Origin: an uncultured Elusimicrobiales bacterium
GTDB taxonomy: Bacteria; Elusimicrobiota; Elusimicrobia; Elusimicrobiales; Elusimicrobiaceae
NCBI GenBank assembly: GCA_944324675.1
Contig: CALUXE010000002.1
Coordinates: forward strand, 124,001 to 188,000
DNA: 64,000 nt
Direction of reading: 5' to 3'
Positions within the stretch are counted from its first letter, which is position 1. Every line of letters starts with the position of its first letter. Positions 7,878 to 42,908 of this stretch are shown here, in pieces. The notes under the pieces are model-generated. The model was not told the DNA's origin. It ran no database searches and saw only the letters and a list, made by a program, of their open reading frames with translations. Made by a program: the position numbers and the translations under genes.

Positions 7878-9142
7878 TTCCCAAACACCGCATCTTTGGC
7901 GTAAAGCGCCTTTTTGCCCAGTTCTTCTTCTATCAGCAAAAGGCGATTGTATTTAGCCAAGCGTTCGCTTCTGGCGGGTGCGCCCGTTTTTATGGCGCCC
8001 GCGTTTACGGCCAGCGCCAAATCCGCTATAAAACTGTCTTCCGTTTCGCCCGAACGGTGCGAAATTATGCAGGAATAGCCCGCCGCCTTGGCCAAATATA
8101 TCACGTCTATCGTTTCGCTTACGCTGCCTATCTGATTTAATTTTATCAAAATTGAATTGGCCGCCTTTTCCGCTATACCCCGCTCCAGACGGATTTTATT
8201 GGTTACGAACAAATCGTCGCCCACTATATTTATCTTCTTGCCCAGCTTGGCCGTCAAATGGCGCCAGCCGTCCCAATCGTCTTCCTGAAGAGGGTCTTCT
8301 ATGGAGACAAGCGGATAGCGTTTAATCCAATCGCCGTAGATTTCCGTCATTTGGGCGGAAGTCTTGTTTTTTCCTTCAAATTTGTAAAAGCCGTTATGAT
8401 AAAACTCGCTCGCGGCAGCGTCCAGCGCGAGGCTCATTTTTGGGTATCCCGCCTTTTTAGCCGCTTCTATAATCGTTTTTAACACTTCGGAATGTTTGCT
8501 TATCTTGGGCGCGAAACCGCCTTCGTCTCCTACCGCGGTTACCATACCCTTTTTAGCCAAATCCTTTTTTAGAACGTGATATGTTTCCGCCGCCGCGCGC
8601 AGCGCTTCTTTGAAAGACGGCGCGAAAGCGGGCACTATCATAAATTCCTGTACGTCCAAGCCGCTGTCGGCGTGTTTGCCGCCGTTGATTATGTTGAGCA
8701 TCGGCGTAGGCATCAGCCACCCCTTTTCTTTAAGGCCGTACACTTCTCTTATATGGCGGTAGAGCGGCTTTTTCGCCGACGCGGCGCCCGCCCTCAAGGC
8801 GGCCATCGATACCGCCAATATCGCGTTCGCGCCCAAGCGGGATTTGTTATTTGTCCCGTCTAAGGCTATCATTATTTGGTCCAGCGCGCGTATGTCGTCG
8901 GCGTCTTTTCCTTTAAGAACTTTTTCTATCTTGGAAACATTCTTTACCGCTTTTAGTACGCCTTTGCCGTTGTAGCGAGAGTCATTGTCGCGCAGTTCCA
9001 AGGCCTCGTGGCTGCCTGTTGAAGCCCCGCTGGGTACGGCCGCGGAACCTGCCGTGCCGTCTTGCAAGACGATGTCGGCCTGCACGGTGGGAAAACCGCG
9101 CGAATCCAGAATTTCTCTCGCTTTTACCGCCTTTATCTTCAT
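7874..9142 (-). CDS. eno: Enolase
   Basis: Converts 2-phosphoglycerate to phosphoenolpyruvate. 422 aa, full length. Conserved blocks are AREILDSRGFPTV, PSGASTGSHEALELRD, the catalytic VGDEGGFAP, the Mg2+ ligand motifs SLALDAAASEF, IEDPLQEDDW and VGDDLFVTN, the lysine segment ILIKLNQIGS and the SHRSGETEDSF signature. The ATG has a GGGGG ribosome site. The gene lies 26 nt after the phosphohexomutase in the same direction. Confidence 0.98.
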   Translation of the reverse strand: MKIKAVKAREILDSRGFPTVQADIVLQDGTAGSAAVPSGASTGSHEALELRDNDSRYNGKGVLKAVKNVSKIEKVLKGKDADDIRALDQIMIALDGTNNKSRLGANAILAVSMAALRAGAASAKKPLYRHIREVYGLKEKGWLMPTPMLNIINGGKHADSGLDVQEFMIVPAFAPSFKEALRAAAETYHVLKKDLAKKGMVTAVGDEGGFAPKISKHSEVLKTIIEAAKKAGYPKMSLALDAAASEFYHNGFYKFEGKNKTSAQMTEIYGDWIKRYPLVSIEDPLQEDDWDGWRHLTAKLGKKINIVGDDLFVTNKIRLERGIAEKAANSILIKLNQIGSVSETIDVIYLAKAAGYSCIISHRSGETEDSFIADLALAVNAGAIKTGAPARSERLAKYNRLLLIEEELGKKALYAKDAVFGK

Positions 9143-9168
9143 ACTTATACCCCCTGTTAAGGACGGCT

Positions 9169-10650
9169 TTAATCTTCCGATAAAGACTGTATTATCTTTT
9201 GGGCTTCGGCTATCAATTTCGCGGGTGCCGCTTCTTCCTTAGCCTCGGCGTAGATCCTTATCAGATGTTCCGTGCCGGAAGGCCTTAAAGCCAGCCAGCT
9301 GCCGTTCCTTAAAATAAATTTAAATCCGTCTGTTTGGTCTATTCTCCAAACGGAAGTTTTGTTGATGGACAGCGGCGGACGGAGGTTCAACTTCTCCATA
9401 ATCTGGTTGATTTCAAGCTCGCGTTTGGGAATGCTGACTTTTTTATCGTAATACATATTGTATTTCTTGTAGAAATCCTTAAACAGCTGCTTTAGCGTTT
9501 TGCCGCTTACCGCCAGCATTTCCAACGTGAGCATACAAGCCGCCAAGCCGTCTTTGTCGGGCATATGGTTGGATATGGCTATGCCGCCCGATTCTTCCGC
9601 GCCGAAGATATATTGGCCTGTCATCATAAGCTCGTTTATGTATTTAAATCCGACAGGGGTTTCCCTTACCGGCAAACCGTGCGCTTTTGCCACTTCGTCT
9701 ATCAAATTGGTGGTGATTAAACTTCTGCATACTCTGCCTTTTTGGCCGCGGTATTCTATTATATGTTCCAGCAGTATCGGCGCGATTTGGTTCGGAGAGA
9801 TCCAATAACCATCGGGCCCGATTATGCCGAATTTATCGCAGTCGCTGTTGCAGGCGATGCCGACGTCGAGTTTCTTTTTGACCACCAATTTGCTTAGCTC
9901 CGAAAGGGCTATCGGCCCGGCATTGGGGACCTTGCCACCGAAAAGGACGTCCGTACCTTCGTGCAGGCCCTCCACTTCGCAGCCGCAGAGTTTCAAAAAT
10001 TCCCTGAAATAATTGTCAGCCGTTCCGAAAAGGGGGTCTATGCCCACTTTGGGCTTTGCTTTCTTTATCGCTTTTACGTTTATCAAAGAGGCTAAATGTT
10101 TGATATATTCGTCCCTGAAGTTAAATTCGCTTACCGCGGAATTTTTATAGCCGAACTCCGGCAGTTCTTTTACGGAACTAGCCGCGGGTGTATTGGCTTC
10201 AATGTCGGCGATAACCTCGTTATTGGCTATCCCGCCGTAATAAGAAATCCATTTAAGGCCGTTTTGGGTATAATCGGCTTCGCTTGCGGTAATTACCACG
10301 GCGCCTACGGCGCCTTCCTTAAGCACTGCCCATTCAGCTACCGGCGTAGGCAAAGGATAAAATGCCCTTTTGACGCTTATGCCCTTTGAGGCCAAAACGT
10401 CGCAGACTATATCGGCGAATTTATCCGACATAAATCTGGTATCGGTGCCCACTATCACAAGCGGCCTTTTGAATTTAAAACCTCTTTCGAGTATATGCTT
10501 TTGGTATCCTTCGCCTTCAAATCCGTAATATTCGTCCGTAAAAATATGCTCGGCTATGGCAACGGAGAGTCTGTAAATGGTTTGAGCGGTAACATTTTCC
10601 GCGATGGTGCCTCTGAACCCGGCGGTAGAAAACTTGATATCATTGGCCAT
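9169..10650 (-). CDS. Phosphohexomutase-family protein with altered catalytic loops
   Basis: 493 aa protein of the alpha-D-phosphohexomutase superfamily. The frame extends to 10776, but the ATG at 10650 (MANDIKFSTAGFRG) has a GAGG ribosome site and starts at the usual domain boundary. The serine loop is ITASEADYTQNG (S123 kept, but the usual His-Asn-Pro after it is Glu-Ala-Asp). The metal loop reads NSDCDK at 268-273 where DGDxDR is normal. The sugar loop GAEESGG and the phosphate loop RPSGTEHLIR are intact. It heads the operon with eno. A canonical paralogue is at 44667-46079. Activity as a mutase is therefore uncertain; it may have a shifted specificity. Confidence 0.85.
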   Translation of the reverse strand: MANDIKFSTAGFRGTIAENVTAQTIYRLSVAIAEHIFTDEYYGFEGEGYQKHILERGFKFKRPLVIVGTDTRFMSDKFADIVCDVLASKGISVKRAFYPLPTPVAEWAVLKEGAVGAVVITASEADYTQNGLKWISYYGGIANNEVIADIEANTPAASSVKELPEFGYKNSAVSEFNFRDEYIKHLASLINVKAIKKAKPKVGIDPLFGTADNYFREFLKLCGCEVEGLHEGTDVLFGGKVPNAGPIALSELSKLVVKKKLDVGIACNSDCDKFGIIGPDGYWISPNQIAPILLEHIIEYRGQKGRVCRSLITTNLIDEVAKAHGLPVRETPVGFKYINELMMTGQYIFGAEESGGIAISNHMPDKDGLAACMLTLEMLAVSGKTLKQLFKDFYKKYNMYYDKKVSIPKRELEINQIMEKLNLRPPLSINKTSVWRIDQTDGFKFILRNGSWLALRPSGTEHLIRIYAEAKEEAAPAKLIAEAQKIIQSLSED

Positions 10651-10808
10651 AAATACCTCATAAATATATAAATCTGTTAAAGCAATATACAAAAATTTAA
10701 GCCAAAAGGAAAGACGCGCCGCAAATATGGGGTTTGGCAAGAAGTTTCGCATCCGCCCTTTTCCGCGCCCGCGCAACGGGGCTTGTATATATTTGCTAAA
10801 ATAATTTT
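10651..10808. promoter_or_regulatory. Divergent promoter region between phosphohexomutase operon and lptF
   Basis: 158 bp between divergently transcribed genes, so it must carry promoters for both. On the plus side a -10-like TAAAAT (10797-10802) lies 6 nt before the GTG of lptF, and no ribosome site is present. On the minus side AT-rich DNA precedes the GAGG ribosome site of the mutase gene. No clear -35 hexamer is seen for either direction. Confidence 0.4.
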
Positions 10809-11918
10809 GTGCCGGGAATAATATTTAGATATATATCAAAAAACTTGGCGATATTCTTTTTGGGAATATTGTTCGTATTCGTTTTTGTCGTTTTTATGGG
10901 GCAGTTCTCCCAAATATTTACCTATGCCATGAACTACGGCGCCGACGTGTTTTGGGTGTTTTCCACTATGCTGTATATGGTGCCCGACATATTGGTGCTC
11001 AGCGTGCCTATGGCTTTGCAGATCGCCATTTTGATGACGCTTACCTCCATGGGCCAAACGGGCGAGATTATGGCGCTGCGCGCGGCGGGGTTTTCGTTTA
11101 TGGAAATAGCGCGCCCGGTACTTATATTCGCGCTTCTGCTCGTGGCCGTAATGACAGGCCTTAACGGCTGGCTCAGCCCTTTGGGGCGCCACCATGTAGA
11201 GCAAAGCAAAGAAGATATAGCATCCAAAATATCCAAGGTCAATATAGAGCCGCGCACTTTCATCGATTTGGGCGACTGGGATTTATTTGCAGAAGACGTG
11301 GATAAAGACAATAACATCATCTATCAGGTCCATCTCTCGCGCAAAAACGACGACAGCGCCCTAAGCACCAAGGTAAACGCTTCCAGAGGCAAGGTGGATA
11401 TAGGCTCGCAGGGAATAAGGCTCACTTTATTTAAGGGGCAGATGCAGAGAGTATATTCTTTGGAAAGCAGGAAGATAATCACCTCCGAATTTAATAAGTA
11501 CGAAGTTTATATTCCTCTAAGCCAAAAGAGTACTGACGATCGTCGTTTAAAAGCGGCCGAGCTTACAACACCGGCGCTTATTAAAGCGGTAAGGCAGGGC
11601 AAGGATTCAATGGAAGAAAAGGAATGGCGGGAATATCGCCCGGCAATTAGCTATCGTATTTCTATGGCTTTATGTCCTTTGATATTTTTCCTTTTAAGCT
11701 GTCCCGTAGCTTTTATCACCACCAAAAAAGCGGGCCGCGCCGGCGCGATGATATACAGCTTGGCGTTTATTTTTGCTTATTTCGGCCTGATAACCATAGG
11801 CAACAGCGTAGCGGAAAAGACCGATATTACATTTTTGGTATATAGCGCGCCGTTTTTGCCGGTAATAGCCGGTTTGGCGGCGGGTGTTTATTTGTGGAAG
11901 AAGAGGCTTTCGGACTGA
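10809..11918 (+). CDS. lptF: LptF/LptG-family LPS export permease (first of pair)
   Basis: 369 aa YjgP/YjgQ-family membrane protein. Three N-terminal helices (residues about 10-120) and three C-terminal helices (about 280-365) flank a periplasmic beta-jellyroll region, the LptF/LptG layout. The N-terminal FRYISKNLAIFFLG and the MALRAAGFSFMEIARP coupling segment are typical. With LptB it would extract LPS from the inner membrane. The start is GTG with no ribosome site and a -10-like hexamer 6 nt upstream. Its stop overlaps the next ATG by 1 nt. LptA, B and C are not in the window. Assigning F rather than G is by order only. Confidence 0.85.
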   Translation: MPGIIFRYISKNLAIFFLGILFVFVFVVFMGQFSQIFTYAMNYGADVFWVFSTMLYMVPDILVLSVPMALQIAILMTLTSMGQTGEIMALRAAGFSFMEIARPVLIFALLLVAVMTGLNGWLSPLGRHHVEQSKEDIASKISKVNIEPRTFIDLGDWDLFAEDVDKDNNIIYQVHLSRKNDDSALSTKVNASRGKVDIGSQGIRLTLFKGQMQRVYSLESRKIITSEFNKYEVYIPLSQKSTDDRRLKAAELTTPALIKAVRQGKDSMEEKEWREYRPAISYRISMALCPLIFFLLSCPVAFITTKKAGRAGAMIYSLAFIFAYFGLITIGNSVAEKTDITFLVYSAPFLPVIAGLAAGVYLWKKRLSD

Positions 11919-13003
11919 TGAAGATTATAGACAGATACATAGCCAAGAAATTTTGGGGCCCTTTTATATTTATAATCAGCATATTTGCCGTGCTGATATT
12001 CTTGGGCGACAGCTTGGAAAAAATGCGCTGGATAAACACCTACGGCACTACTTTGGCCTTGGTTGTGAAGTACAGCTTTTTGACAATGCCCTCTTGGCTG
12101 ATACAAGTATTGCCCGTGGCGTGCCTGCTAAGCGCTTTGTTTGTAATATCGGATATGATTTCCGGAGGGGAATGGACGGCGTGCTTGGCGGGCGGTTATT
12201 CGGTAAGGCAGATATTCAAGCCTTTGATTTTATGTATTTTCATAATAGCGGCGGCGGGCTTTTGCGTGCAGGAATTTTTCGTGCCGGATATGAGCAAGAA
12301 AGCCGAACTTACCCGCCAGCGTAAAATAAGGGGCGAAAAGGATTGGTACTTTAACGTGCAAAACGACGTTACTTTAAGGCTGGACGGCAAGAGAGTGCTT
12401 TTCGCGAAAACGGTCAAAGCCGACGAAGGGCTTATGGAAGGTATGTTTATAGACGTATATGACGATAAATGGGCGATAAGCTCTCAGATAAGCGCGCGGC
12501 GTTTTGTTTGGGACGAAGGCAAGGGCGTATGGGTGTTTGAGGACGGTTTTACCAGGTATTTCGGCAAGAACGCAAGCATAAAAGAGGAAAGTTTTGAGAT
12601 TATGGACTCCGATTTTTCCGTCCCGCCCGATCAAATAGCGGTGGGCAGCGCGAAGGCTTCTTATCTCAGCATAAGCGATTTGCTTAGACGGATAAAGTTT
12701 TTAAAGGCGAGCGGGCTGACCAGCTATCAGGAGGAAACCTTCCTAAACGCGAAACTGGCCGCGCCTTTTGCAACAGTGATAATGTGTCTTTTGGGTATGC
12801 CCTTCGCGATAGCTTTAAAGCGTTCGAGCAAATTGCTAAACATAGTGGCGGCTATAGCGATAGGCTTTACTTTTTGGTGGATAGTTTCCATGCTCACTTC
12901 CGCAGGCCAAAGCGGAATGATAAATCCGATAGTTGCCGGTTGGCTGCCGGTAGGACTTTTCGCCATAGTGGCTTACGTGGAGTTTAAAATTCTGAGAATA
13001 TAA
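11918..13003 (+). CDS. lptG: LptF/LptG-family LPS export permease (second of pair)
   Basis: 361 aa partner of the preceding permease, with the same helix-jellyroll-helix architecture. It opens MKIIDRYIAKKFWGPF and has the coupling segment LAGGYSVRQIFKPL. An in-frame ATG at 11894 exists, but the ATG at 11918 overlaps the previous stop by one base (TGATG), the usual translational coupling, and gives the family's normal N terminus. A terminator follows at 13038-13079. The F/G naming is tentative. Confidence 0.85.
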   Translation: MKIIDRYIAKKFWGPFIFIISIFAVLIFLGDSLEKMRWINTYGTTLALVVKYSFLTMPSWLIQVLPVACLLSALFVISDMISGGEWTACLAGGYSVRQIFKPLILCIFIIAAAGFCVQEFFVPDMSKKAELTRQRKIRGEKDWYFNVQNDVTLRLDGKRVLFAKTVKADEGLMEGMFIDVYDDKWAISSQISARRFVWDEGKGVWVFEDGFTRYFGKNASIKEESFEIMDSDFSVPPDQIAVGSAKASYLSISDLLRRIKFLKASGLTSYQEETFLNAKLAAPFATVIMCLLGMPFAIALKRSSKLLNIVAAIAIGFTFWWIVSMLTSAGQSGMINPIVAGWLPVGLFAIVAYVEFKILRI

Positions 13004-13018
13004 CCATTTAATATTAAA

Positions 13019-13091
13019 TATAAAATCTAAACATATAAATAAGCAAGCATATAAATGATACGCTTGCTTATTATTTTTTATAAAATCTAAA
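13019..13091. repeat. 13-bp direct repeat bracketing the terminator
   Basis: The sequence TATAAAATCTAAA occurs at 13019-13031 and again at 13079-13091, on either side of the rho-independent terminator after lptG. The second copy lies 4-16 nt before the GAGG ribosome site of the SprA-like gene. It could be part of two promoters or a small duplication. Confidence 0.6.
13038..13079 (+). terminator. Rho-independent terminator after lptFG
   Basis: An 11-bp stem (AATAAGCAAGC paired with GCTTGCTTATT) with a 13-nt loop, followed by ATTTTTT. It separates the Lpt permease unit from the SprA-like gene. Confidence 0.85.
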
Positions 13092-13103
13092 ATAGAGGAT
13101 TTT

Positions 13104-16100
13104 GTGCTTAAAAAAATATTAAGGCTGTTTCTTAGCTTTTGTTTGATGACTGAAGGGCTGGGCCTAAACGCTTATGGCGCGCAGGAGGCAGCCCCTTCCG
13201 CCGCGCAGGAACGCGAACAGGGCTTTGAAAACTCGGTCTTTAAAGATCCCAATCGTTTCGGCGACGGGATAAAACTTTTTGAGCCTTCCAAATACGGCTT
13301 TTTGGCCGAGGATAAACCGCTCCTTTTGCCTTACGAGGAAGACTCCTCCGAAGACGAGGACGAATATTACAAATATAACCGAGCCTATCTGGAAAAAGTG
13401 ATAAAGGATATGGACGGCGGCGTCCAAGTCAGAGAGCAGGCTACGGAATACATCGAGATATTAAACCCATCTCTGCTTTTGCCGATATACGGCACCACGA
13501 TATCGATGACCGGCCGCAAGACTTTCGGCATAAAATACGACGCCAAGAAATATAAAGAGAGCAAAAGCACCGTAACCGACCGCGATACCAGCAGCGTGGA
13601 GTTTGAGCAGGAAATGCAGCTTAAGGTGCAGGGCAAGATAAGCGACAGAATCTTTGTAGACATCGATTATGACGACCAGCGCGAAGACGCCCAAAACATA
13701 GGCGTATCCTACCGGGGCAAGCCGGGCGAAATAGTTCAAAGCGCGGACTTCGGCGATATAGAATTATCCCTGCCGGGCACGGAGTTTATATCTTACAGCA
13801 AACAGGTGTTCGGCGCGAAAATGCACCTTCAATACGGCGACGCGCATTTAAGGCTTATCGGCAGCCAAAACAAAGGCGAGAACAAAAGCAAACAGTTCAA
13901 AGGCGACAGCGTCTTTGAAACGGTAAACATCAAGGACTTGCAATATATAAGGCGCAAATATTACGATTTGACATTCGGCTACCAAACCGGCGCCAGCACC
14001 AGTACGCAGTGGACCTACTCCATAAAACAAGGTACGGAAAAGGTTTATATTGACGACCATACCAACGGCGGTTATCAGGTGGCGAGCAAGGCGGTGGACA
14101 TAAAAACCGGCGCCGTCTATCCCACCAACGGCGGAACGGCGGCCTTCAAATTGCTGACGCGCGGCGTGGACTACACGATAGACTATAACCAAAATATCCT
14201 CATATTTAACAACGGCCTCAGCGCGACGGATGTCGTAGCGATAGATTATCAAAACTCGCAGGGGGTTTGGGCCAGCTCCGCCCAGCCGGACGGTTATCCG
14301 ATACTAATAAAGACGAATAACGAACGCCCGCTTGTTTCAAACGACGAGCTTGATTATCAGTTGGAAATGAAGCGCTATTACAGCATAGGCGCCACTCAGA
14401 TTACGCGCGATGACGGCAGCGGCAATTTTATTTTGAAATTGCTTGAATCCGACGGCGCGGAAGTTTGCGCCGCGAACGACACCAGACCCTTTTGCCAGTT
14501 TACCGTAGATTACGATAAGGGCATATTTAAGATAGGCGGAAGATTCAGCGACGTCAGTTTGTATAACGCTACGCCCGCTTCCTCCACAAACAGATATTTC
14601 TTCGTGCAGTATACCTCCACGGTAAAAACGTACTTTTTGGAGCCGGATATAGTCGTCCAGTCCGAAACGGTAAAAGTAAACGGGGCGACTATGGAGCGCA
14701 ACAAGGACTATTACGTCGACTACGCTTCGGGCTTTATAACTTTTTACAATTCCGATTTGATAGGCTCAAACAGCGTAGTCGACGTTACCTACGACGTGGC
14801 CGGCGGCAGCGAGGATACGGCGCTTATGGGCGGGCGTTTTAATTATGATTTTACCGATAAAATATCCGTCGGCGCCAGCTTGTTGAATGAATCGGGCAGC
14901 GAGCCAAAACGCGTGCCCAATGTGGGCGCAACGACAAGCAGCTTGATGGCCATGGAAGCGGATTTTAAAGTCGACAATGTGGAAGTGGTCGACGGCGTGC
15001 ACGTAACTTTGGGCGCGGAGGCGGCGCAAAGCAGAAAGGACGAAAACCTTTTCGGCTACGCTATGATAGACAGTATGGAAGAAACCAAGGAATACGTAAA
15101 AGCTTCCACCATATACAGCGATTGGAAAATAGCTTCCAACCCTACGGCGGGCACCAACTTCTTTGACGCCATTAAATGGGACTCCCAAGACGTGCCTATG
15201 CTTCAGATAAACCCTTCGGCGATAGCCAACGGCGACGACAAGCAAAACGTACTGCTGATAGATTACGACTTCAGCATAGCTCAGGATAAGGGCTTTGGCG
15301 ACAGGGACGAAGTTTCCATAGTCTATCCGATAAGCAGTTCGGGCGTAGACTTTTCCAATAAGACCTTGTTCGAGCTGACTATGCAGGGCGAAGAAAACGG
15401 CCCGCTTATCAATATTTCGTTTGGTACGATAAACGAAATGTCTGATAATTACACCGATTACGGCGCACTTCTTGCCGACGGATTTTCGCTGGATCAGATT
15501 TTCCCGGTATGCAGTAAATACTATGTGGCGGGCATGAACACCGTCCCCAAAACGGAAGATTTAAGATGTACCGGCAAATTGACCAACTCCGAAGATATGG
15601 GCTGGCTTTACATCAACCCGGACGGCTCATATCAGAGATATAATCCTTTTGCCAATAACGTATATAACCCTTGGCCACAGCCTACGGGCGTGATAGAAAC
15701 GCAGGACTTAAACGGCAACGGTTTATTGGATTCGGAGGATTTGACTTCGGGCGGGAATTTCGGTTTCGCGGGACAGGAAATCAACGGCCTTCCGGGCGGG
15801 GAGATAAATTTCAGCGGCTGGAAAACTTTTAATCAGGAAGTGGATTTCGGATCCGCCACAAATGTTTGGGGTACGGACTGGACTTCCATACAGCAAATGC
15901 GTATTACCCTCAAAAGAAACCCCAACGGCGGGAAGCTAAAGGGGCAAATCAAGATAGCTTCTTTGGGTGTATCGGGCAGCGTGTGGCAGCCTCTCGACAC
16001 CGATGAGGAAGTCCTCTTAAGCTACGGAATAAACAATGTCGATAATATGAATTACAAACCTATTTTCAGCGATAACGGCGACGGCGGAGAGGTCTTCCGC

Positions 16101-18542
16101 ACTTTGTACGGCTCTGTAAACGACTTAAAAAAAGACGACGGCACCAACAATATAGAAGAGCAGTCCCTGGCTTTGCAGTACGACTTCAGCAAAAACCCGC
16201 TGCTTGATAAAGTTTCCGTGCAGAGGAATTTCAGCGCGATGGATTTTTCCAAGCACAAGCAATTTAGGTTTTTGCTTTACAATAACGGCGAAATAGACGA
16301 GGAAACTTATTTCTTCCTTCGTATAGCGGCCGACGAAAACAATTACAGCGAGGTGCGGGTCCCTCTTAACTTTAAAGACGCTTGGCATCTGTACAGTCTA
16401 AAACTTATCGACACCAACGGCGACAATATCCCAGACAGGTGGGAGAATGTTTCCGATTACGACGCCACTGTTACCAATGAGGGTATGTTAAATTACAAGA
16501 GGGTGGGCATAATAACTTCCGGTATTATGAAAAGCGACGGGACTACTCCGCAGGGCGAGGTATGGCTGGACGATATTTTCCTGGCGGAATCCATAGTAAC
16601 GGTCGGCAACGCTTATATGGCGCAGGCGCAGGTAAGCGTGGATAATTGGTTTGACGCGGGCGGCAAGGTCACCTATGTGGACGAGAACTTCCAAACGCCT
16701 GTGGCGGTGGCGGCCAATCAGAAAAATACGCAGGAAGATTATTACTTCAAATTTAAGAGATTTAAGAATTTGCCCATCAACGCAAAATATAACCGTTCCA
16801 ATATCGTGACGCCGGACGTTTTGGGCTATGACAGCAGCAATACGGTCAGCCTCTTGGATAAAGGCGAGGTAAACCGCGACAGCGGAAGCATAAACGCGGA
16901 ATACATCAATTCCAATTTCCCGCAGATAGGGGTAAATTATTCTTTTGAAAACGCCGAATATCAAATGTTGCAAAGAGCCGACGACAGCGACACTTACAGC
17001 GTCACCCTTAACCATACCGCCAAGAGCAAGGACAATATAATCAAAAGCCTTTCGGCGGGAACCTCTTTGGTAAAGAGCAAGATAGATTACAGCGATTCGC
17101 AGTTAATAGCGGCGCAGGGCACCAGCTATAACAGCGACACCACCACGCAAAACTATAATTTTAAGATGACGCTTTCGCCTTGGCAGGGTACTTCGATAGT
17201 ACCCAGTTACACTTTAAGCACCGCCGACGAAAAGAGAAGATATTATGACGCTTCCGTCGGAATAGAGGAATTTAGAAACAAAAAGTACAGCAAGGCGGCG
17301 GCGGAGACGGCTTCTATCAGTACGGCTTTTAGGATAGCGCCTTGGCTTACGCCTACCGCCAGTTACAGCGTCAGCATTAACGAGAACAACAACCTTACCA
17401 AGACTTCCTATAAAGTAAATGATAATACCTATACTTTCGACATCGGCGACGTAAAAAGCATTAACAGAAGCTCTGAGGGCAATGTGTCGCTCTCTTTAAA
17501 CGGGCGAGATATGCTGCCCAAATCTAAATTATTTTCCGCGTTTACGATATCGGGCTCTTACAGAATGCAGGACGGCGACGCTTGGGAAAACGTGCCGGAC
17601 TCTTTTGAAACTTTGGACAAACTTTGGCTCAGGAGTTCCATGGGCTTAAATTCGCCCTACAGTTACAGGAGCAGTATGACTTTGCGCGATACTTACAGCG
17701 CGGCTATGCGCTGGTCTCCTTTTAAGGAGTACGGCTTTAGCGGAATGGCCGCGCCGATAAAGACGATTTCTATCATCAACAATTTCGCGCAGAGTTATCA
17801 GACCAGCGAGGATTTGGGCTCGCAGTACGAAACGGTGACTTCCACTCTGCCCGACGTGGTTTTCTATATAGACGAGTTGGAAAAGCTGTTCGGCGCGTCG
17901 GACAAAATACTTTCCGGCACAAATTTGAAACTCAAATATGCCTTATCTACGAATGAAACTCTCGGCACGAGCTATAAGGAAGATGTAGCTTACGGCGGAG
18001 ATTTGCGCTTTGTGCTTTTTAATTATTTCGACACCACTTTAAGCTATACCCAACAGAAGCAAGACCAAACCGACTTGCTGGTCAATCAACCTTTGGCGAG
18101 CTATTTAAGGAAAGATTTTTCCGCGCAGACTTCCTTTTCGCACCGCGCTTTCCGCTTCACTCCCAAGATAACCTATATCTATGACCGCAGCGAGGAAGTG
18201 GGCGATGTCTTGGTAGACAGCGTGGAGGAAATCGTGCCAAGCCTTAATGTCAGGGTGGACTTCAATTTGCCCTTCAGCTTCCGCCTGCCGATTTTAGGCG
18301 CGCAGTATCTTATGACAAACCGCGTGATATGGAATACCACCGCCAGCTATTCGCGCAGGCGTTCTTTTACCGTGGAAGAAAACCGCGACCTTCTGGATAT
18401 CACCACTAGTTTGGATTATGAAATTTCCAAAAATATGCGCATAACGCTTTCCGGCGCTTTCCAGAATTTCAAACATCTTTATATAGCGGAGGATTCCTAT
18501 ACCGCCTATAATATCGGCACCGTCCTTACGATACAGTTCTAG
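13104..18542 (+). CDS. Giant SprA/Sov-like outer-membrane protein
   Basis: 1812 aa with a signal peptide (LKKILRLFLSFCLM, cleavage near AYG-AQE). After an acidic stretch (about residues 77-85), residues about 165-265 resemble the repeated SprA N-terminal domain: KVQGKISDRIFVDIDYDDQ, then a GEIVQSADFGDIELSLPG block and the KQVFGAKMHLQYGD block. Two Asp/Asn-rich calcium-type loops (DLNGNGLLD near 868, DTNGDNIPD near 1101) also fit SprA-like proteins. The second half alternates polar and aromatic residues as in a very large beta barrel and ends in a terminal Phe (TVLTIQF). SprA/Sov is the type IX secretion translocon of Bacteroidetes, usually about 2300-2500 aa, so this protein is shorter. No other T9SS genes are seen. 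Start is GTG with a GAGG ribosome site. Homology is inferred by eye. Confidence 0.6.
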   Translation: MLKKILRLFLSFCLMTEGLGLNAYGAQEAAPSAAQEREQGFENSVFKDPNRFGDGIKLFEPSKYGFLAEDKPLLLPYEEDSSEDEDEYYKYNRAYLEKVIKDMDGGVQVREQATEYIEILNPSLLLPIYGTTISMTGRKTFGIKYDAKKYKESKSTVTDRDTSSVEFEQEMQLKVQGKISDRIFVDIDYDDQREDAQNIGVSYRGKPGEIVQSADFGDIELSLPGTEFISYSKQVFGAKMHLQYGDAHLRLIGSQNKGENKSKQFKGDSVFETVNIKDLQYIRRKYYDLTFGYQTGASTSTQWTYSIKQGTEKVYIDDHTNGGYQVASKAVDIKTGAVYPTNGGTAAFKLLTRGVDYTIDYNQNILIFNNGLSATDVVAIDYQNSQGVWASSAQPDGYPILIKTNNERPLVSNDELDYQLEMKRYYSIGATQITRDDGSGNFILKLLESDGAEVCAANDTRPFCQFTVDYDKGIFKIGGRFSDVSLYNATPASSTNRYFFVQYTSTVKTYFLEPDIVVQSETVKVNGATMERNKDYYVDYASGFITFYNSDLIGSNSVVDVTYDVAGGSEDTALMGGRFNYDFTDKISVGASLLNESGSEPKRVPNVGATTSSLMAMEADFKVDNVEVVDGVHVTLGAEAAQSRKDENLFGYAMIDSMEETKEYVKASTIYSDWKIASNPTAGTNFFDAIKWDSQDVPMLQINPSAIANGDDKQNVLLIDYDFSIAQDKGFGDRDEVSIVYPISSSGVDFSNKTLFELTMQGEENGPLINISFGTINEMSDNYTDYGALLADGFSLDQIFPVCSKYYVAGMNTVPKTEDLRCTGKLTNSEDMGWLYINPDGSYQRYNPFANNVYNPWPQPTGVIETQDLNGNGLLDSEDLTSGGNFGFAGQEINGLPGGEINFSGWKTFNQEVDFGSATNVWGTDWTSIQQMRITLKRNPNGGKLKGQIKIASLGVSGSVWQPLDTDEEVLLSYGINNVDNMNYKPIFSDNGDGGEVFRTLYGSVNDLKKDDGTNNIEEQSLALQYDFSKNPLLDKVSVQRNFSAMDFSKHKQFRFLLYNNGEIDEETYFFLRIAADENNYSEVRVPLNFKDAWHLYSLKLIDTNGDNIPDRWENVSDYDATVTNEGMLNYKRVGIITSGIMKSDGTTPQGEVWLDDIFLAESIVTVGNAYMAQAQVSVDNWFDAGGKVTYVDENFQTPVAVAANQKNTQEDYYFKFKRFKNLPINAKYNRSNIVTPDVLGYDSSNTVSLLDKGEVNRDSGSINAEYINSNFPQIGVNYSFENAEYQMLQRADDSDTYSVTLNHTAKSKDNIIKSLSAGTSLVKSKIDYSDSQLIAAQGTSYNSDTTTQNYNFKMTLSPWQGTSIVPSYTLSTADEKRRYYDASVGIEEFRNKKYSKAAAETASISTAFRIAPWLTPTASYSVSINENNNLTKTSYKVNDNTYTFDIGDVKSINRSSEGNVSLSLNGRDMLPKSKLFSAFTISGSYRMQDGDAWENVPDSFETLDKLWLRSSMGLNSPYSYRSSMTLRDTYSAAMRWSPFKEYGFSGMAAPIKTISIINNFAQSYQTSEDLGSQYETVTSTLPDVVFYIDELEKLFGASDKILSGTNLKLKYALSTNETLGTSYKEDVAYGGDLRFVLFNYFDTTLSYTQQKQDQTDLLVNQPLASYLRKDFSAQTSFSHRAFRFTPKITYIYDRSEEVGDVLVDSVEEIVPSLNVRVDFNLPFSFRLPILGAQYLMTNRVIWNTTASYSRRRSFTVEENRDLLDITTSLDYEISKNMRITLSGAFQNFKHLYIAEDSYTAYNIGTVLTIQF

Positions 18543-18553
18543 CGGGGATATTT

Positions 18554-19285
18554 ATGATTCGTAAATTTTTTATAAAAGCGCGCGATTTGTTTTTGCATAT
18601 ATTTTTTCCGCGGACCTGTTTTTGCTGCGGGCGGGATATCCCGAAGTCAAATCCGGCTTTGCTGTGCAGGGAATGTTCGCTTAAACTAGAGCGCTGCGAC
18701 GGGCTTATCTGCCGCCGCTGCGGGCTGCCTTTAAAAAACGGCGGGGCTTATTGCTTTAACTGCCGAGGCGGCAAAGCCTCAAAATATAAATGTTCGTTTA
18801 TACGCTCTTCCTTGGTTTTCAATGAGCCTTCACGCTCTTTAATCCACTCGTTTAAATACGAAAAATATACCGACATAGCCAAATTCTTCGCCGCTTTAAT
18901 GTATAAAACATATAAGGAAAACCCGCCGTATTTTGAAGCTGATTTTTTAACGCCCGTGCCCATACACTCCAGACGTTTGAGGAAAAGGGGGTTTAATCAG
19001 GCCTTTCTGATGGTTAAAGAGCTTTCCAAATTAAACGGCGTGGAAGTAAAAGACATATTGATAAGAACGCGTAAAACAAAAAGCCAAACTTCGCTCGGCC
19101 GCGCCGAACGCAAAGAGAACATAAAAGAGGCTTTCTCCTTAAAGAAAGGCGCAGATGTCAAAGGCAAGGCTTTTATTTTGATTGACGACGTTTGCACTAC
19201 CGGCGCCACTTTGGAAGAATGCGCCCGCGTTTTAAAGGAAAACGGCGCGCGGGAAGTTTTGGCTTTGACCGCGCTTAGAGAATAG
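18554..19285 (+). CDS. comF: ComF-family phosphoribosyltransferase-like protein
   Basis: 243 aa. An N-terminal zinc ribbon has pairs CFCC, LLCREC, CRRCG and CFNCRG within residues about 17-70. The C-terminal PRTase domain has the PRPP-binding motif FILIDDVCTTGATLEEC. In naturally transformable bacteria ComF takes part in DNA uptake, but homologues are widespread without competence. The gene follows the SprA-like gene by 11 nt with a GGGGA ribosome site and is probably co-transcribed. Confidence 0.9.
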   Translation: MIRKFFIKARDLFLHIFFPRTCFCCGRDIPKSNPALLCRECSLKLERCDGLICRRCGLPLKNGGAYCFNCRGGKASKYKCSFIRSSLVFNEPSRSLIHSFKYEKYTDIAKFFAALMYKTYKENPPYFEADFLTPVPIHSRRLRKRGFNQAFLMVKELSKLNGVEVKDILIRTRKTKSQTSLGRAERKENIKEAFSLKKGADVKGKAFILIDDVCTTGATLEECARVLKENGAREVLALTALRE

Positions 19286-20260: not shown

Positions 20261-21472
20261 CTATTTTTTCTTTTCGGTTTTGGCGGGCTCGGCTTTTGCT
20301 TTGTCGGTATCCGCTTTTGCGCCGTCTTTTTCCGATTGCGCTTTCTCGTCCGTATTGGCGGTTGCCGGCTGTGAATATTCAAACTTCACCATTACCTTGA
20401 TTTCCGCTTTGTCTTTGAGCGAGGCCAAGTAATCCAAATTGGCTTTTTGCATTTCTGTCGCCGCCAAGAACTGCGCCAATTCGGGTTCTATATCTTTGTA
20501 GGTAAAGTCTTTCTGAGCCTTTTTCTCGTTGACTTTGATTATATAGTAGCCGTCGTCCGTTTTGATAGGATCGCTAATCGCGCCTACTTTGATGTTAAAC
20601 ACTTTCTCGTCAAATTCTTTAGGCATAATGCCTTTAATCAAAATCATTTCGCCGCCGGTAGCCAAAGAGGCTTTATCGTCGGAGTATTTCTCTATCGCTT
20701 CAAGGAAAGTAACTTTGCCGGAAGTTATTTGCTTTTTAATGTCCTTGGCTTCCTTTTCTTTAAGTTTCCAGTTGGCCTGAGTAGCGTTTTTATCCACCTT
20801 TATGAATATGGGGGATAGTTTAATTTGCTCCGCCGTAAGCTGGGTAAGTTTGGCGGCCAAAGGGGCGGCCAAAGTCAGTCTTTCTCTGGAAAGTTTCTTT
20901 ATTTCCGTTTCGTTGCCCTTCATCAATACGCGTATATCGTCGTAGAGTTGTTCGGTCTGTTCTTTCGTGGGTGCTTTCGCTTTTTCCCTGGCGACGGCGT
21001 CAATCATTTTCTTTACCGCAAGCTGATCTTTTATGCGTTGTTCAAATTGCTTATAGCTAAGCCCTTCTTTTTTTAGTTCCGCGTTAAAGGCTTTTTGCGC
21101 TTCTTTTTCGGAGAGGGTTTTGCCGTTCTCGTCTTTTTCAAAACGTTTTTTTATTTCTATTACGTTTTCGTTGACTTCGCTGTCTTTTACTTTTATATTC
21201 TGTTCTTTGGCCGCTTGTAAAAGTAGCTGCTCTATTATCATTTGGTTTAAAACTTCTTCTTTTATGGCTGTTACGTTGTCTTGATTTTCCAGCAGGGCCG
21301 GGTTTTGCTTTTTGTATACTTCCATTGTGGTGTCTATTATTTTTTGATATTCGGAATTCATTATAGGAGTTCCGTTCACCGTCGCTACGGTTGAATCCAC
21401 CACTTTCGCGTTAAGCAGAGCCGTACCTAAAAACAAGGCCGCCATAATCACGGTTATTTTATTTGCTTTCAT
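20261..21472 (-). CDS. Exported peptidyl-prolyl isomerase, SurA/PrsA-like (parvulin)
   Basis: 403 aa with a signal peptide (KITVIMAALFLGTALLNAKV). The N-terminal SurA-like helical chaperone region starts VNGTPIMNSEYQKI. A parvulin rotamase domain lies at about residues 225-330 (KEAKDIKKQITSGKVTFLEA, then ATGGEM and YYIIKVNEK). The C terminus is a Lys/Glu/Ala-rich tail. It would assist folding of outer-membrane proteins in the periplasm. The start has a perfect GGAGGT ribosome site and overlaps the upstream isomerase gene by 14 nt. Confidence 0.88.
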   Translation of the reverse strand: MKANKITVIMAALFLGTALLNAKVVDSTVATVNGTPIMNSEYQKIIDTTMEVYKKQNPALLENQDNVTAIKEEVLNQMIIEQLLLQAAKEQNIKVKDSEVNENVIEIKKRFEKDENGKTLSEKEAQKAFNAELKKEGLSYKQFEQRIKDQLAVKKMIDAVAREKAKAPTKEQTEQLYDDIRVLMKGNETEIKKLSRERLTLAAPLAAKLTQLTAEQIKLSPIFIKVDKNATQANWKLKEKEAKDIKKQITSGKVTFLEAIEKYSDDKASLATGGEMILIKGIMPKEFDEKVFNIKVGAISDPIKTDDGYYIIKVNEKKAQKDFTYKDIEPELAQFLAATEMQKANLDYLASLKDKAEIKVMVKFEYSQPATANTDEKAQSEKDGAKADTDKAKAEPAKTEKKK

Positions 21473-22307
21473 TATTTGTTACCTCCACGCCGTACTTGCC
21501 TTTTAGGGAATTTAAGTAGGCGTCCATTTTTTGTCTTTCCAAAATTTCTTTTATACGGTCCTTAGCTTTATTGTAGCTAAGTTTTTCTTCGCCCGTTTTC
21601 ATTATTATATGAAATCCGCGCGGCGTTTTTATGAATCCCTGCACCTGATAGGCGGGCGTATTGGCCGCGGCCACTTCTATTTGCGGCAGATATTCGCCCG
21701 GAATGAAGGGCGGCAATTCGCCTTTATTTTTCTTGGAAACTGGATCTTTTGAAAATCTTTTTACCGCGTCTTGGAAGGTCTGCTTCGTCTTGGAGTTGCG
21801 TATGGCGCGGGTTACGTCGGCCGCTTCTTTCGCGTCTTGCAGCACTATTTCCATAAGATAAATCTGATAGGGATATTTGTCGTAGTAGGCTTTTATTTCC
21901 TCTTCGCTTACGGCTATGGTGCCGTCGTCATATAGCTTTTGCGCCATCAATCGGGAAAGAGAATAGTCTTTAGCTTTTTCCAAGCTTCGTTTTTGTTGGT
22001 CTTCTATGTCTTTTATTTCCTTAATATATTGGGGATCATTTTCCAAACCGCTGTCCTTGGCGGCTTTTATGATGAGTTTTTCGTTTATCAGATAATTAAG
22101 GAAGTTTTCCCTGCCGATATCCGTATCCAAATATTTTTGAAAGGAATCGTCCAAAGAAGACGCCTCCGTTTCGAAATCGGTTGTTGTTATAGGTTCGCCC
22201 GCCACGGTCGCCAGGACGTCCCCGTTTTGCGCGTTATTATTTAGCGGCGTTTTCTCGCAGGCGCACAGTATAAGCAGAGCCGCTGCCAAAAGAGTTAATT
22301 TCCTCAT
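21459..22307 (-). CDS. Lipoprotein peptidyl-prolyl isomerase (parvulin)
   Basis: 282 aa. The N terminus MRKLTLLAAALLILCACEK has a lipobox (LCAC), so it should be lipid-anchored after Lgt processing. A SurA-like N-terminal region (ATVAGEPITTTDFE) is followed by a PpiC domain at about 145-245 (YQIYLMEIVLQDAKEA, KNKGELPPFIPGE, PRGFHIIMKTGEE). The pair with the next gene suggests a lipoprotein/soluble chaperone team for envelope proteins. No ribosome site precedes the ATG. Confidence 0.87.
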   Translation of the reverse strand: MRKLTLLAAALLILCACEKTPLNNNAQNGDVLATVAGEPITTTDFETEASSLDDSFQKYLDTDIGRENFLNYLINEKLIIKAAKDSGLENDPQYIKEIKDIEDQQKRSLEKAKDYSLSRLMAQKLYDDGTIAVSEEEIKAYYDKYPYQIYLMEIVLQDAKEAADVTRAIRNSKTKQTFQDAVKRFSKDPVSKKNKGELPPFIPGEYLPQIEVAAANTPAYQVQGFIKTPRGFHIIMKTGEEKLSYNKAKDRIKEILERQKMDAYLNSLKGKYGVEVTNNESK

Positions 22308-30148: not shown

Positions 30149-30866
30149 AGAATTAAATTATTCCAAAGTAAAGACATACAGGGATTGCCCGTACCTTTTC
30201 AAGCTAAAATATATAGACGGTAAAAGGGAGGGGCTTATCCCCGCGACGTCGCTCGGCGTTTCGATACACCGTACATTGGAAGCCTACCACGCGCAAAGCA
30301 ACGACCCGAGCGAACTGCTTAAATATTATAACCGCTATTGGCTGGGCGCGGGATATGGCAGCGCGGGCGAGCAGATGGAATATTATCTCAAGGGCAAGCG
30401 AATGTTGGAAATTTATGAGCAGAACGAATATGCCCGCGACACAACGATAGACGCTACGGAACGGGAATTTGTCTTCGAATATGAAGGGTGGCGTTTCCGC
30501 GGCAAGATAGACAGAATTGACCGTTTGCCGGACGGAGGCTGGGAAGTGATAGATTATAAAACGGATGCCGTAATGGACGATAACTTCGACATAAAAAATT
30601 CGCTCCAGCTGGGTATATACAGCATAGGCGCGCGGCGCGCGTGGAATATGCAAAAGGGCAAGGCGACGATATATTTTGTCGCCTTGGACAAGAAAATATC
30701 TGCCGATTTTTCCATTTTTGACGAGAAATTGATACTGGATACTTTTATTTTGGCGGGCGAAAGCATAGAAGCGGGCGAATTTGAGCCCGATACCCGCCAT
30801 TGTGGAAATTGTCTTATGAACAAGCGCTGTCCTTTCAGTATGAAAAAGGGGGAGGAGCAACAATGA
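30129..30866 (+). CDS. Stand-alone RecB/Cas4-like PD-(D/E)XK nuclease
   Basis: 245 aa. The order fits the RecB-type exonuclease domain: LNYSKVKTYRDCPYLFKLKY (first cysteine), GVSIHRTLEAYH, FRGKIDRID (catalytic Asp), WEVIDYKTD (D-x-K), the LQLGIYSIGA Q-motif and the C-terminal CGNCLMNKRC. The four cysteines (one N-terminal, three C-terminal) match the Fe-S cluster ligands of Cas4/AddB. There is no helicase domain and no CRISPR array or cas gene in the window. A housekeeping 5'-end processing or repair role is possible. It overlaps rsmD and the TPR gene. Confidence 0.85.
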   Translation: MIPNNPKELNYSKVKTYRDCPYLFKLKYIDGKREGLIPATSLGVSIHRTLEAYHAQSNDPSELLKYYNRYWLGAGYGSAGEQMEYYLKGKRMLEIYEQNEYARDTTIDATEREFVFEYEGWRFRGKIDRIDRLPDGGWEVIDYKTDAVMDDNFDIKNSLQLGIYSIGARRAWNMQKGKATIYFVALDKKISADFSIFDEKLILDTFILAGESIEAGEFEPDTRHCGNCLMNKRCPFSMKKGEEQQ

Positions 30867-32809
30867 AATTTTTTGCGGGTCTTATCATCGGGATATTGCT
30901 GTGCTTGGCTTTGATCGGGTTCGGCGGATATTATCTGCTTGGCGAATTGAAGAATATGGGGCAGACGCAGAAGGCTGCTTACGCGCAGAATACCGCGGCG
31001 GCGGATCCCGCGCAGGAGGCGCTTAGACAGGCTTTGGAATCTTTCAACGCCGCTTCCGATCCGCGGGATATGATTGCGGGATTGGATAGGATAATAAGCC
31101 TCCGCCCCGATGAGCCGCAAGCCTATGCGGCCAAGGCGGCCCTGCTGATGAACCAAGGCGATTATCAAGGCGCGCTTTACAACTATAACAAGGCTTTGTC
31201 TTTGAATCCCAATTCGGCCGATTTATATTTGGGCAGAGCCACCGCTTTAATGATGAACGGCGATTATGAACGCGCCAATATGGACTTGAGTACGGCTTTG
31301 AATTTAAATCCCAACTTGGCGCAGGCCTATTATAACAGGGGCGTGAGCAATATCAATTTAGCCAGAATAAGGCCCGCGATGGCAGATTTTGCGCAGGCAC
31401 AAAAACTGTTTGCCTCCGCGGGCGACAGGGCAAATTATATGCAGGCCGCCCAAGCGTTGAACTTAATCAAGACTCAAAGCGCGGCTTTAAATAAAAATTC
31501 GGCCGCGGCAAAGGCGGATATGGCTAAAGCGGCGAAGGAACTGAGGGTTTCTTCTTCCCCCGCGGCAGACCGAAATACGGCGGCTAAACTAAAAAGCGAA
31601 CTTACCCGCAGCTTGAGCGGCATATCCGCGGGGCTGAAAAACAGCGACAATAAAAATATGCTGCAAAAATTCAAACAAGTGTCGGCGGGCTTGAATTCGG
31701 GGGAAGTCGACCCGGGCGATTTTAATTCCTTCCTTAATTCCGCTTCCCGTAAAATGGCGCAGGAACAAAGCGGAGGCAAGAAAAATCTTTTGGATTATAC
31801 CGCCGCCGCCAAAGAAAAGATGGCAAAGGGCGATTATCAGGGCGCGGCGGCGGATTTGGATAAGGCGATAGAAATGTCTTCAAATCCGTCAAGTTTATAC
31901 GCGCAGCGCGCGGCGCTCAATATGCAAAATAAAAACTATAAAGCCGCGTATGAGGATTATTCCAAAGCGATAGAGTCCGATAAAAATAACGCTTCGGCTT
32001 TGTTGAACAGAGCGAAATTGCTTTCGTCAATGGGCAACAACAAAGCCGCCGCCGCGGACGCGGACGCGGCAAAAGCTTTGTACGAACAACAGGGCAATAA
32101 AGAGGGCGCCATACAGGCGGAAAATATTTCCAATTTGGCGCGCGGGGTAAACACACAGAAAAGGAGCGTCAGGGACGGCATATCGGAGGCTCTTTTCAAA
32201 GACGCTTCCAACGCCTACGCCAGCGGGAACTACCAAGAATCTTTAAATAAATTCAACGAGCTGGCCCAGCGCCAACCAGATGTGCCTGAGGTCTATTATA
32301 ACAGAGCGATAGTCAATGCGGCGGCGGGTAATAAAGAGGCGGCATTAAAAGATTACAGACAAGCTTCGGCGATGAACCCGAACTTGCCCGACGCGCGCAT
32401 CGGCGCGGCTTCCATACTTATGGAGCAGGGCAAAGGCGAGGAAGCTATTAAGGAAATAAACGCCGCGCTTGAAATCAATCCGAACATGCCTTCGGCTTAC
32501 AGAATGAGAGGTATACAGACGCTTCAAGGCGGCGAGGCTCAAAAAGCGGTGGAGGATTTCTCAAAAGCCATAGAGTTGGATAATAAAGATGGGGCAAGCT
32601 ACTTCTCCAGAGCGTTGGGCTATGCCCAACAGGGAAATTTCGATAGGGCTAGGGCGGATTTCGTCAAGGCCAATTCACTTGCGGCCGAGCAGGGTAACCA
32701 AGAGCTGCTAAATGAAGTCGCCAAATACCAGAAAATACTTGAAGATGCTGTACAACAACAGGCCCGGCAGACGCAGCAGCAGGCCCAACAGCAAGTTCCT
32801 AGGCAGTGA
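30863..32809 (+). CDS. Membrane-anchored TPR protein
   Basis: 648 aa. The frame is open from 30800, but the ATG at 30863 has a strong GGAGGAG ribosome site and overlaps the nuclease stop (ATGA), and it gives an N-terminal membrane anchor (FFAGLIIGILLCLALIGFGG). Two blocks of tetratricopeptide repeats, about residues 70-205 and 310-620, flank an Ala/Lys/Ser-rich region (about 210-300). Typical repeat text is AYYNRGVSNINLA and YFSRALGYAQQGNFDRA. The end is Gln-rich. It is probably a periplasmic or membrane scaffold; the partner is not known. A terminator follows. Confidence 0.85.
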   Translation: MKFFAGLIIGILLCLALIGFGGYYLLGELKNMGQTQKAAYAQNTAAADPAQEALRQALESFNAASDPRDMIAGLDRIISLRPDEPQAYAAKAALLMNQGDYQGALYNYNKALSLNPNSADLYLGRATALMMNGDYERANMDLSTALNLNPNLAQAYYNRGVSNINLARIRPAMADFAQAQKLFASAGDRANYMQAAQALNLIKTQSAALNKNSAAAKADMAKAAKELRVSSSPAADRNTAAKLKSELTRSLSGISAGLKNSDNKNMLQKFKQVSAGLNSGEVDPGDFNSFLNSASRKMAQEQSGGKKNLLDYTAAAKEKMAKGDYQGAAADLDKAIEMSSNPSSLYAQRAALNMQNKNYKAAYEDYSKAIESDKNNASALLNRAKLLSSMGNNKAAAADADAAKALYEQQGNKEGAIQAENISNLARGVNTQKRSVRDGISEALFKDASNAYASGNYQESLNKFNELAQRQPDVPEVYYNRAIVNAAAGNKEAALKDYRQASAMNPNLPDARIGAASILMEQGKGEEAIKEINAALEINPNMPSAYRMRGIQTLQGGEAQKAVEDFSKAIELDNKDGASYFSRALGYAQQGNFDRARADFVKANSLAAEQGNQELLNEVAKYQKILEDAVQQQARQTQQQAQQQVPRQ

Positions 32810-41098: not shown

Positions 41099-41099
41099 T

Positions 41100-42824: not shown

Positions 42825-42908
42825 AACAATCCCCTTTTTCAAAGATTTCCCCCAATTATATCATTTATCGGGGCCGTTAGCGATTATGTAGCCAAGCGAT
42901 AATAATGT

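Follow-up and report, generated by a model that had tools for sequence, protein, structure and literature searches.

A SprA-family protein with PorV-family carriers and type-A-like sorting domains points to a type IX-like secretion system in Elusimicrobiota

Introduction

Type IX secretion has been described as specific to Bacteroidota or to the Fibrobacteres-Chlorobi-Bacteroidetes group (PMC4793230, PMC8754138, PMC11205867). What, then, is the role of a gene resembling that of SprA, the translocon of the type IX secretion system (T9SS), in a member of the Elusimicrobiota? The gene lies at 13104..18542 on the plus strand of a 64,000-nucleotide stretch of contig CALUXE010000002.1 (assembly GCA_944324675.1; 1.4 Mb, 17 contigs, 99.7% complete) from an uncultured Elusimicrobiales bacterium; this whole stretch is called the window below. 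From the letters of the window, the original prediction described the product as a SprA/Sov-like giant outer-membrane protein outside the usual type IX setting, either a simpler translocon or a different very large channel. The SprA/Sov-like part of that description is supported by sequence, predicted fold and partners. From sequence comparison and structural models, we consider it highly probable that this protein serves Elusimicrobiota as the outer-membrane translocon of a type IX-like secretion system, and the best reading of the evidence is a system of this kind without a recognisable motor or ring.

Homology to SprA and predicted fold

A phmmer search of the PDB (177,635 sequences) with the single protein of 1812 amino acids (aa) gave nothing useful, and family profiles were therefore needed. 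With an order-level profile of 24 sequences, F. johnsoniae SprA ranked first in the PDB (E = 8e-21) and aligned in three collinear blocks. A phylum-wide profile of 25 sequences matched the solved SprA (6H3I) at E = 2.3e-35 and was collinear across 975 columns (E = 2e-33) with Parabacteroides SprA, for which the sprA reference was one weak tblastn match among plasmids. The NCBIfam model TIGR04189 (SprA) also matches the whole protein in five stretches (E = 8.5e-37, 126 bits). The strongest match to this model (positions 91-257) and to SprA itself (residues 148-286) is an N-terminal homology block at about residues 128-290 (13485..13973, +), and the SprA-like block originally placed at residues 165-265 falls inside it; the best-scoring stretch of the TIGR04189 match spans residues 130-290. 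A second homology block, from the motif 'N-DYY-DY-SG-ITFY' onward (14580..15161, +), corresponds to TIGR04189 positions 578-796. The resemblance is not due to chance, since SprA heads the PDB matches of the profile built from the protein's own family, and the gene is retained by 59 of 60 relatives; on sequence grounds, the 1812-aa protein is a true SprA homologue, with the homology extending over most of its length.

The fold was predicted by AlphaFold2 on two overlapping fragments (residues 100-1180 and 640-1812, with 66-sequence alignments), for which the mean predicted local distance difference test scores are 80 and 85 and the predicted template modelling (TM) scores 0.56 and 0.53, respectively. 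In the Foldseek comparison that had been proposed as a check, four SprA chains were the top four matches for both fragments, with E values of 8e-43 to 1e-29 for the N-terminal fragment (next match 7.5e-8) and 6e-32 to 1.4e-26 for the C-terminal fragment (next match 8e-6), so that about 20 or more orders of magnitude separate SprA from any other protein. The TM-scores to SprA reach 0.42-0.48, a modest level that reflects the comparison of incomplete barrels with a full one. VIA superposition of the two fragments on SprA covered 629 residues at a root-mean-square deviation (rmsd) of 6.1 and 971 residues at 15.1. The SprA barrel has 36 strands (PMC10994853), and 36 long strands were also counted here, 28 of at least 9 residues from residue 1150 on and 8 of at least 11 residues before residue 660, a count taken from the predicted secondary structure of two fragments with length thresholds of our choosing and not from one closed barrel model. 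By these models the protein has the SprA fold. Instead of an ordinary barrel of 12-24 strands without a profile match, about 36 strands were predicted and SprA profiles matched, and the idea of a different very large channel finds no support.

Distribution in the phylum

The SprA-like gene is present in 185 of 199 sampled Elusimicrobiota genomes (157 of the 166 good ones), as a rule with one match each. The best 80 named contigs with a relative are labelled Elusimicrobia or Elusimicrobiota, except for a few called only 'bacterium', and the nearest are gut Elusimicrobiaceae. No relative of the SprA-like protein was found in a scan of viral contigs. TIGR04189 also matches a control genome, Thermus composti, below the cut-off, and SprA-like proteins may occur in Deinococcota too.

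PorV-family carriers and type A-like cargo

Among those genes of the window that were inspected, none was of the gld or por kind, as had been reported. The claim that the gene stands outside the usual type IX setting nevertheless holds only in part: the search for partners in the rest of the genome recovered carriers of the PorV family as well as cargo ending in type-A-like C-terminal domains (CTDs), whereas profile searches lacking a positive control did not find the GldL/M motor or GldN.

Carriers of the PorV family (NF033709) are present in 187 of the 199 genomes, frequently ten or more in each. The model's cut-off is 90; 133 genomes have a carrier above it, and the pair in the genome under study scores 88-89 and about 67-78 bits. 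In this genome the PorV-family genes lie at two sites, 1 and 18 bases 3' of genes for large exported proteins, the C termini of which are of the FlgD-Ig or sorting-domain kind; one of these proteins is an M4-type peptidase. A phmmer search with a single PorV protein found no match, whereas a profile of 16 sequences found the SprA-bound PorV (6H3I chain F) at E = 1.5e-36, with FadL-type proteins next at 2.6e-6.

The type-A-like CTD profile has members in 181 of the 199 genomes. Its first match in the PDB is the CTD of P. gingivalis PorZ (E = 5e-10), and the CTDs solved with the translocon (8glk and 8glj) match too. TIGR04183 is matched by 15 of 19 CTDs, and the T9SS_sortase model matches through the CTD only. 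The alignment of these 19 CTDs contains an invariant Lys close to the C terminus; a near-invariant Lys is known from type A CTDs (PMC10994853). Cargo and carrier genes also tend to be paired. In loci from up to 20 genomes, a CTD is encoded by the same-strand gene directly upstream of PorV in 11 of 16 cases and by the downstream gene in 1 of 13 (P = 0.002, Fisher's exact test), the usual order being cargo and then carrier, adjacent to each other.

Some CTD-PorV loci carry further genes. On contig 4 of genome G000, two tandem giant CTD proteins of 1367 and 1380 aa with the same C-terminal end (L054:4764-8867 and 9068-13210) precede a single PorV-family gene, beyond which lie genes resembling a Flp/Tad-type pilus set. 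Contig 4 of G000 also has a PorV gene at 62336-63226, preceded by the gene of a peptidase with a CTD. CTD-PorV clusters recurring at L144, L150, L152 and L145 include an extra exported protein of about 410-550 aa with a Y-rich, barrel-like end ('YNY-T-NYF-G--WEY'), and some of them also encode an exported protein of about 500 aa; these extra proteins may form an unnamed accessory module. In two different genomes, a gene for a four-helix protein of the 23S rRNA intervening-sequence type (PF05635) sits between the CTD and PorV genes (L152:6513-6872 and L153:7985-8368).

Joint retention and loss of SprA and PorV

In one genome-reduced genus, SprA and PorV are kept or lost together. In this genus, g38 of family f12, 11 genomes have strong matches to both, and the other 11, which lack PorV, have either no SprA match (8 genomes) or a weak one (3 genomes: G071, G134 and G159). 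BamA is present in all 22, and the outer membrane assembly machinery has therefore not been lost. The association is significant within the genus (P = 3e-6, Fisher's exact test) and across the 199 genomes (P = 4e-10), although these values overstate the evidence because the genomes are related. The weak SprA remnants in G071, G134 and G159 suggest that the system has decayed recently in these lineages, which are reduced and probably symbiotic.

Motor components and proposed mechanism

GldM was found in 0 of the 199 genomes even at E = 0.001, and GldN in 0 of 199 above the cut-off, in profile searches for which none of 14 control genomes gave a match above the cut-off either. The lone GldN match (G122, 15.8 bits over 40 positions) was judged to be chance. 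GldL was searched for in the source genome only, with nothing better than E = 1.7 and again no control genome above the cut-off; in one frame of this genome, 1706 aa long, weak matches to GldL (E = 1.8) were likewise judged to be chance.

By analogy with F. johnsoniae (PMC10994853), cargo would cross the inner membrane via Sec. Its CTD would pass into the SprA pore, at whose side opening a PorV-family carrier would be docked. Once the CTD is bound to the loops of this carrier, the two would exit together, sideways onto the cell surface. Current work holds that the carrier-cargo complex leaves SprA only with input from the motor (PMC10994853). Given no recognisable GldL, GldM or GldN, release in Elusimicrobiota would either draw its energy from a different or strongly diverged motor or require no energy. 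The chances seem to us evenly balanced that the Elusimicrobiota translocon runs without the GldLM proton-driven motor and the GldKN ring, with many cargoes having a PorV-type carrier of their own and release being unpowered or due to a different inner-membrane machine. If this is true, the motor-less translocon would represent type IX secretion in an older or simpler form.

Alternative explanations

The system could instead be a complete, ordinary type IX system in which GldK/L/M/N have diverged too far for Bacteroidota profiles, so that the phylum is the sole novelty. We hold this possibility to have a real, though minority, chance of being correct. SprA itself scores below its curated cut-off here, and its partners may do so too; the requirement for the motor in F. 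johnsoniae (PMC10994853) points the same way, and without a positive-control genome the GldM result does not show absence. On the other hand, SprA, PorV and the CTD are readily detected in more than 90% of the genomes, against no GldM in 199 and one 15.8-bit fragment of GldN, and GldL has no match better than E = 1.7 in the source genome.

A second explanation is that a SprA-family barrel has been repurposed, for example to move lipopolysaccharide or lipids together with LptF/LptG, and exports no protein. Here lptF and lptG lie on one flank of the SprA gene and comF on the other, as originally stated, and this arrangement is conserved within the order. Adjacency to lptFG extends phylum-wide, being found in 18 of 20 distant genomes (to comF in 15), and it is the point in favour of such another role. 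However, the orientation of the SprA gene to lptFG is mostly divergent in other genomes, and a terminator-like repeat separates them in the window; lptFG and SprA are therefore not one operon, and membership of SprA in an lptFG operon was dropped on these grounds. SprA and PorV are, moreover, retained or lost jointly while BamA persists, and a repurposed barrel would leave PorV and the CTD proteins without a translocon. We regard repurposing as improbable.

An ordinary large barrel of the TonB-dependent receptor or LptD type, SprA-like by composition only, has next to no chance of being right and was dropped on the Foldseek, VIA and phylum-profile evidence: TonB-dependent receptor barrels do align to residues 527-1041 of the C-terminal model (Z up to 18.6), but over about 400 residues against up to 971 with SprA, N-terminal part included, the Foldseek gap is at least 20 orders of magnitude, and plug and TonB-dependent receptor families have no match in the protein.

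Several observations weigh against the reading as a type IX-like translocon. The 126 bits of the TIGR04189 match are fewer than the curated equivalog cut-off of 200, for which reason we assign the protein to a divergent lineage within the SprA family and do not count it as a TIGR04189 equivalog. The proposed PF14349 check turned out mixed, since this SprA_N model has no match in the protein or the genome (nor in any control genome) and other SprA profiles do match. The gene's position is tied to lptFG and not to PorV or CTD genes. Co-loss with PorV is limited to one reduced lineage of non-independent genomes, and five genomes (G065, G127, G139, G153 and G203), some of them fragmented assemblies, have PorV and no SprA match. 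Finally, the absence of GldM, GldN and GldL is likely rather than proven, because it rests on Bacteroidota profiles that no control genome matched above the cut-off.

Features of the gene and its neighbours

The gene starts with GTG, and a ribosome-binding-site-like AGAGGA (13094..13099, +) lies 4 nucleotides 5' of it. The translation suggests a signal peptide at about residues 1-26 (13104..13181, +). Both of the calcium-type Asp/Asn loops noticed earlier are present. Loop 1 (D868-LNGNGLL-D876; residues 868-879, DLNGNGLLDSED, 15705..15740, +) has D868, G873 and D876 invariant among 24 relatives, and in loop 2 (D1103-TNGDNIP-D1111; residues 1103-1112, DTNGDNIPDR, 16410..16439, +) D1103 and D1107 are nearly invariant. 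A region at about residues 647-1166 (15042..16601, +) contains, in the model, a jelly-roll resembling family 11 carbohydrate-binding modules (Z = 13.5, rmsd 2.7 over 153 residues); this match is discontinuous, and the SprA match covers the region too. The C-terminal barrel part (residues 1150-1810, 16551..18533, +) is predicted to hold 28 consecutive strands of 9-20 residues, and the terminal Phe is invariant in the 24 relatives, which agrees with the barrel-like half and final Phe described before.

The genes lptF and lptG (10809..13003, +) are conserved neighbours by position, as is comF (18554..19285, +), which starts 12 bases past the SprA stop codon. Between lptG and the SprA gene, an inverted repeat with a T-run (13038..13079, +) could, from its sequence, be the end of the lptFG transcript; promoter and terminator scans gave sites not in excess over shuffles.

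Two adjacent SurA-like prolyl isomerases of the PpiC type are encoded near the translocon gene (20261-22307, -), and the Flavobacterium translocon also has a prolyl isomerase subunit. Elsewhere in the window are a TldD/TldE-type protease pair (39470-42842, -), two adjacent genes matching the PmbA/TldD C-terminal domain, and a 669-aa tetratricopeptide-repeat protein (30800-32809, +) with a weak match to the tetratricopeptide-repeat part of Slam surface-lipoprotein exporters.

Comparison with known secretion systems

No report of a T9SS in Elusimicrobia was found in the literature searched, preprints and most subscription journals being outside its scope, and the genomic evidence describes a phylum-wide branch of type IX secretion previously unreported in that literature. 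Individual components have probably been annotated in public genomes before, because NCBI family names exist for them (PorV/PorQ family, T9SS sorting domain). With this branch, type IX secretion reaches into a distant phylum, and the surface proteome can be predicted for organisms that are mainly known through metagenomes. A set of translocon, carrier and tag without a recognisable motor would also be a natural test of the motor's purpose.

Compared with SprA/Sov (TIGR04189, PF14349, PDB 6H3I), the Elusimicrobiota protein shares at least three collinear homology blocks, the same predicted fold with about 36 strands, a conserved C-terminal strand ending in Phe, and a genome that also encodes PorV-family and CTD partners. 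It differs in scoring under the TIGR04189 cut-off, in leaving PF14349 unmatched and in being about 590 aa shorter, in line with the earlier estimate of about 600 aa (exactly 591 aa less than the 2403 aa of F. johnsoniae SprA). It is also sited between lptFG and comF, whereas Parabacteroides sprA follows ruvA. Because the curated SprA score is not reached and the motor was not found, we rank the system apart from ordinary T9SS members.

With the type A branch of the T9SS (SprA, PorV and type A CTD, GldKLMN, PorU), the Elusimicrobiota system shares the translocon, the carrier family and a CTD with an invariant Lys near its end; GldM, GldN and GldL are the components that profile searches lacking a positive control did not find. 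In Bacteroidota, one PorV serves all type A cargo, and for type B cargo a dedicated PorP/SprF shuttle is encoded downstream (PMC12618676). Elusimicrobiota genomes, in contrast, encode several to many PorV-family carriers, often directly 3' of the cargo gene. A shuttle gene directly after its cargo gene is also the arrangement of Flavobacterium type B cargo with its cognate PorP/SprF (PMC12618676), but in Elusimicrobiota the shuttle is a PorV-family protein and the cargo ends in a type-A-like CTD. As judged from gene content and order, Elusimicrobiota thus merge the two Bacteroidota arrangements: the cargo has a CTD of the type-A-like kind, and its gene lies beside that of a PorV-family carrier.
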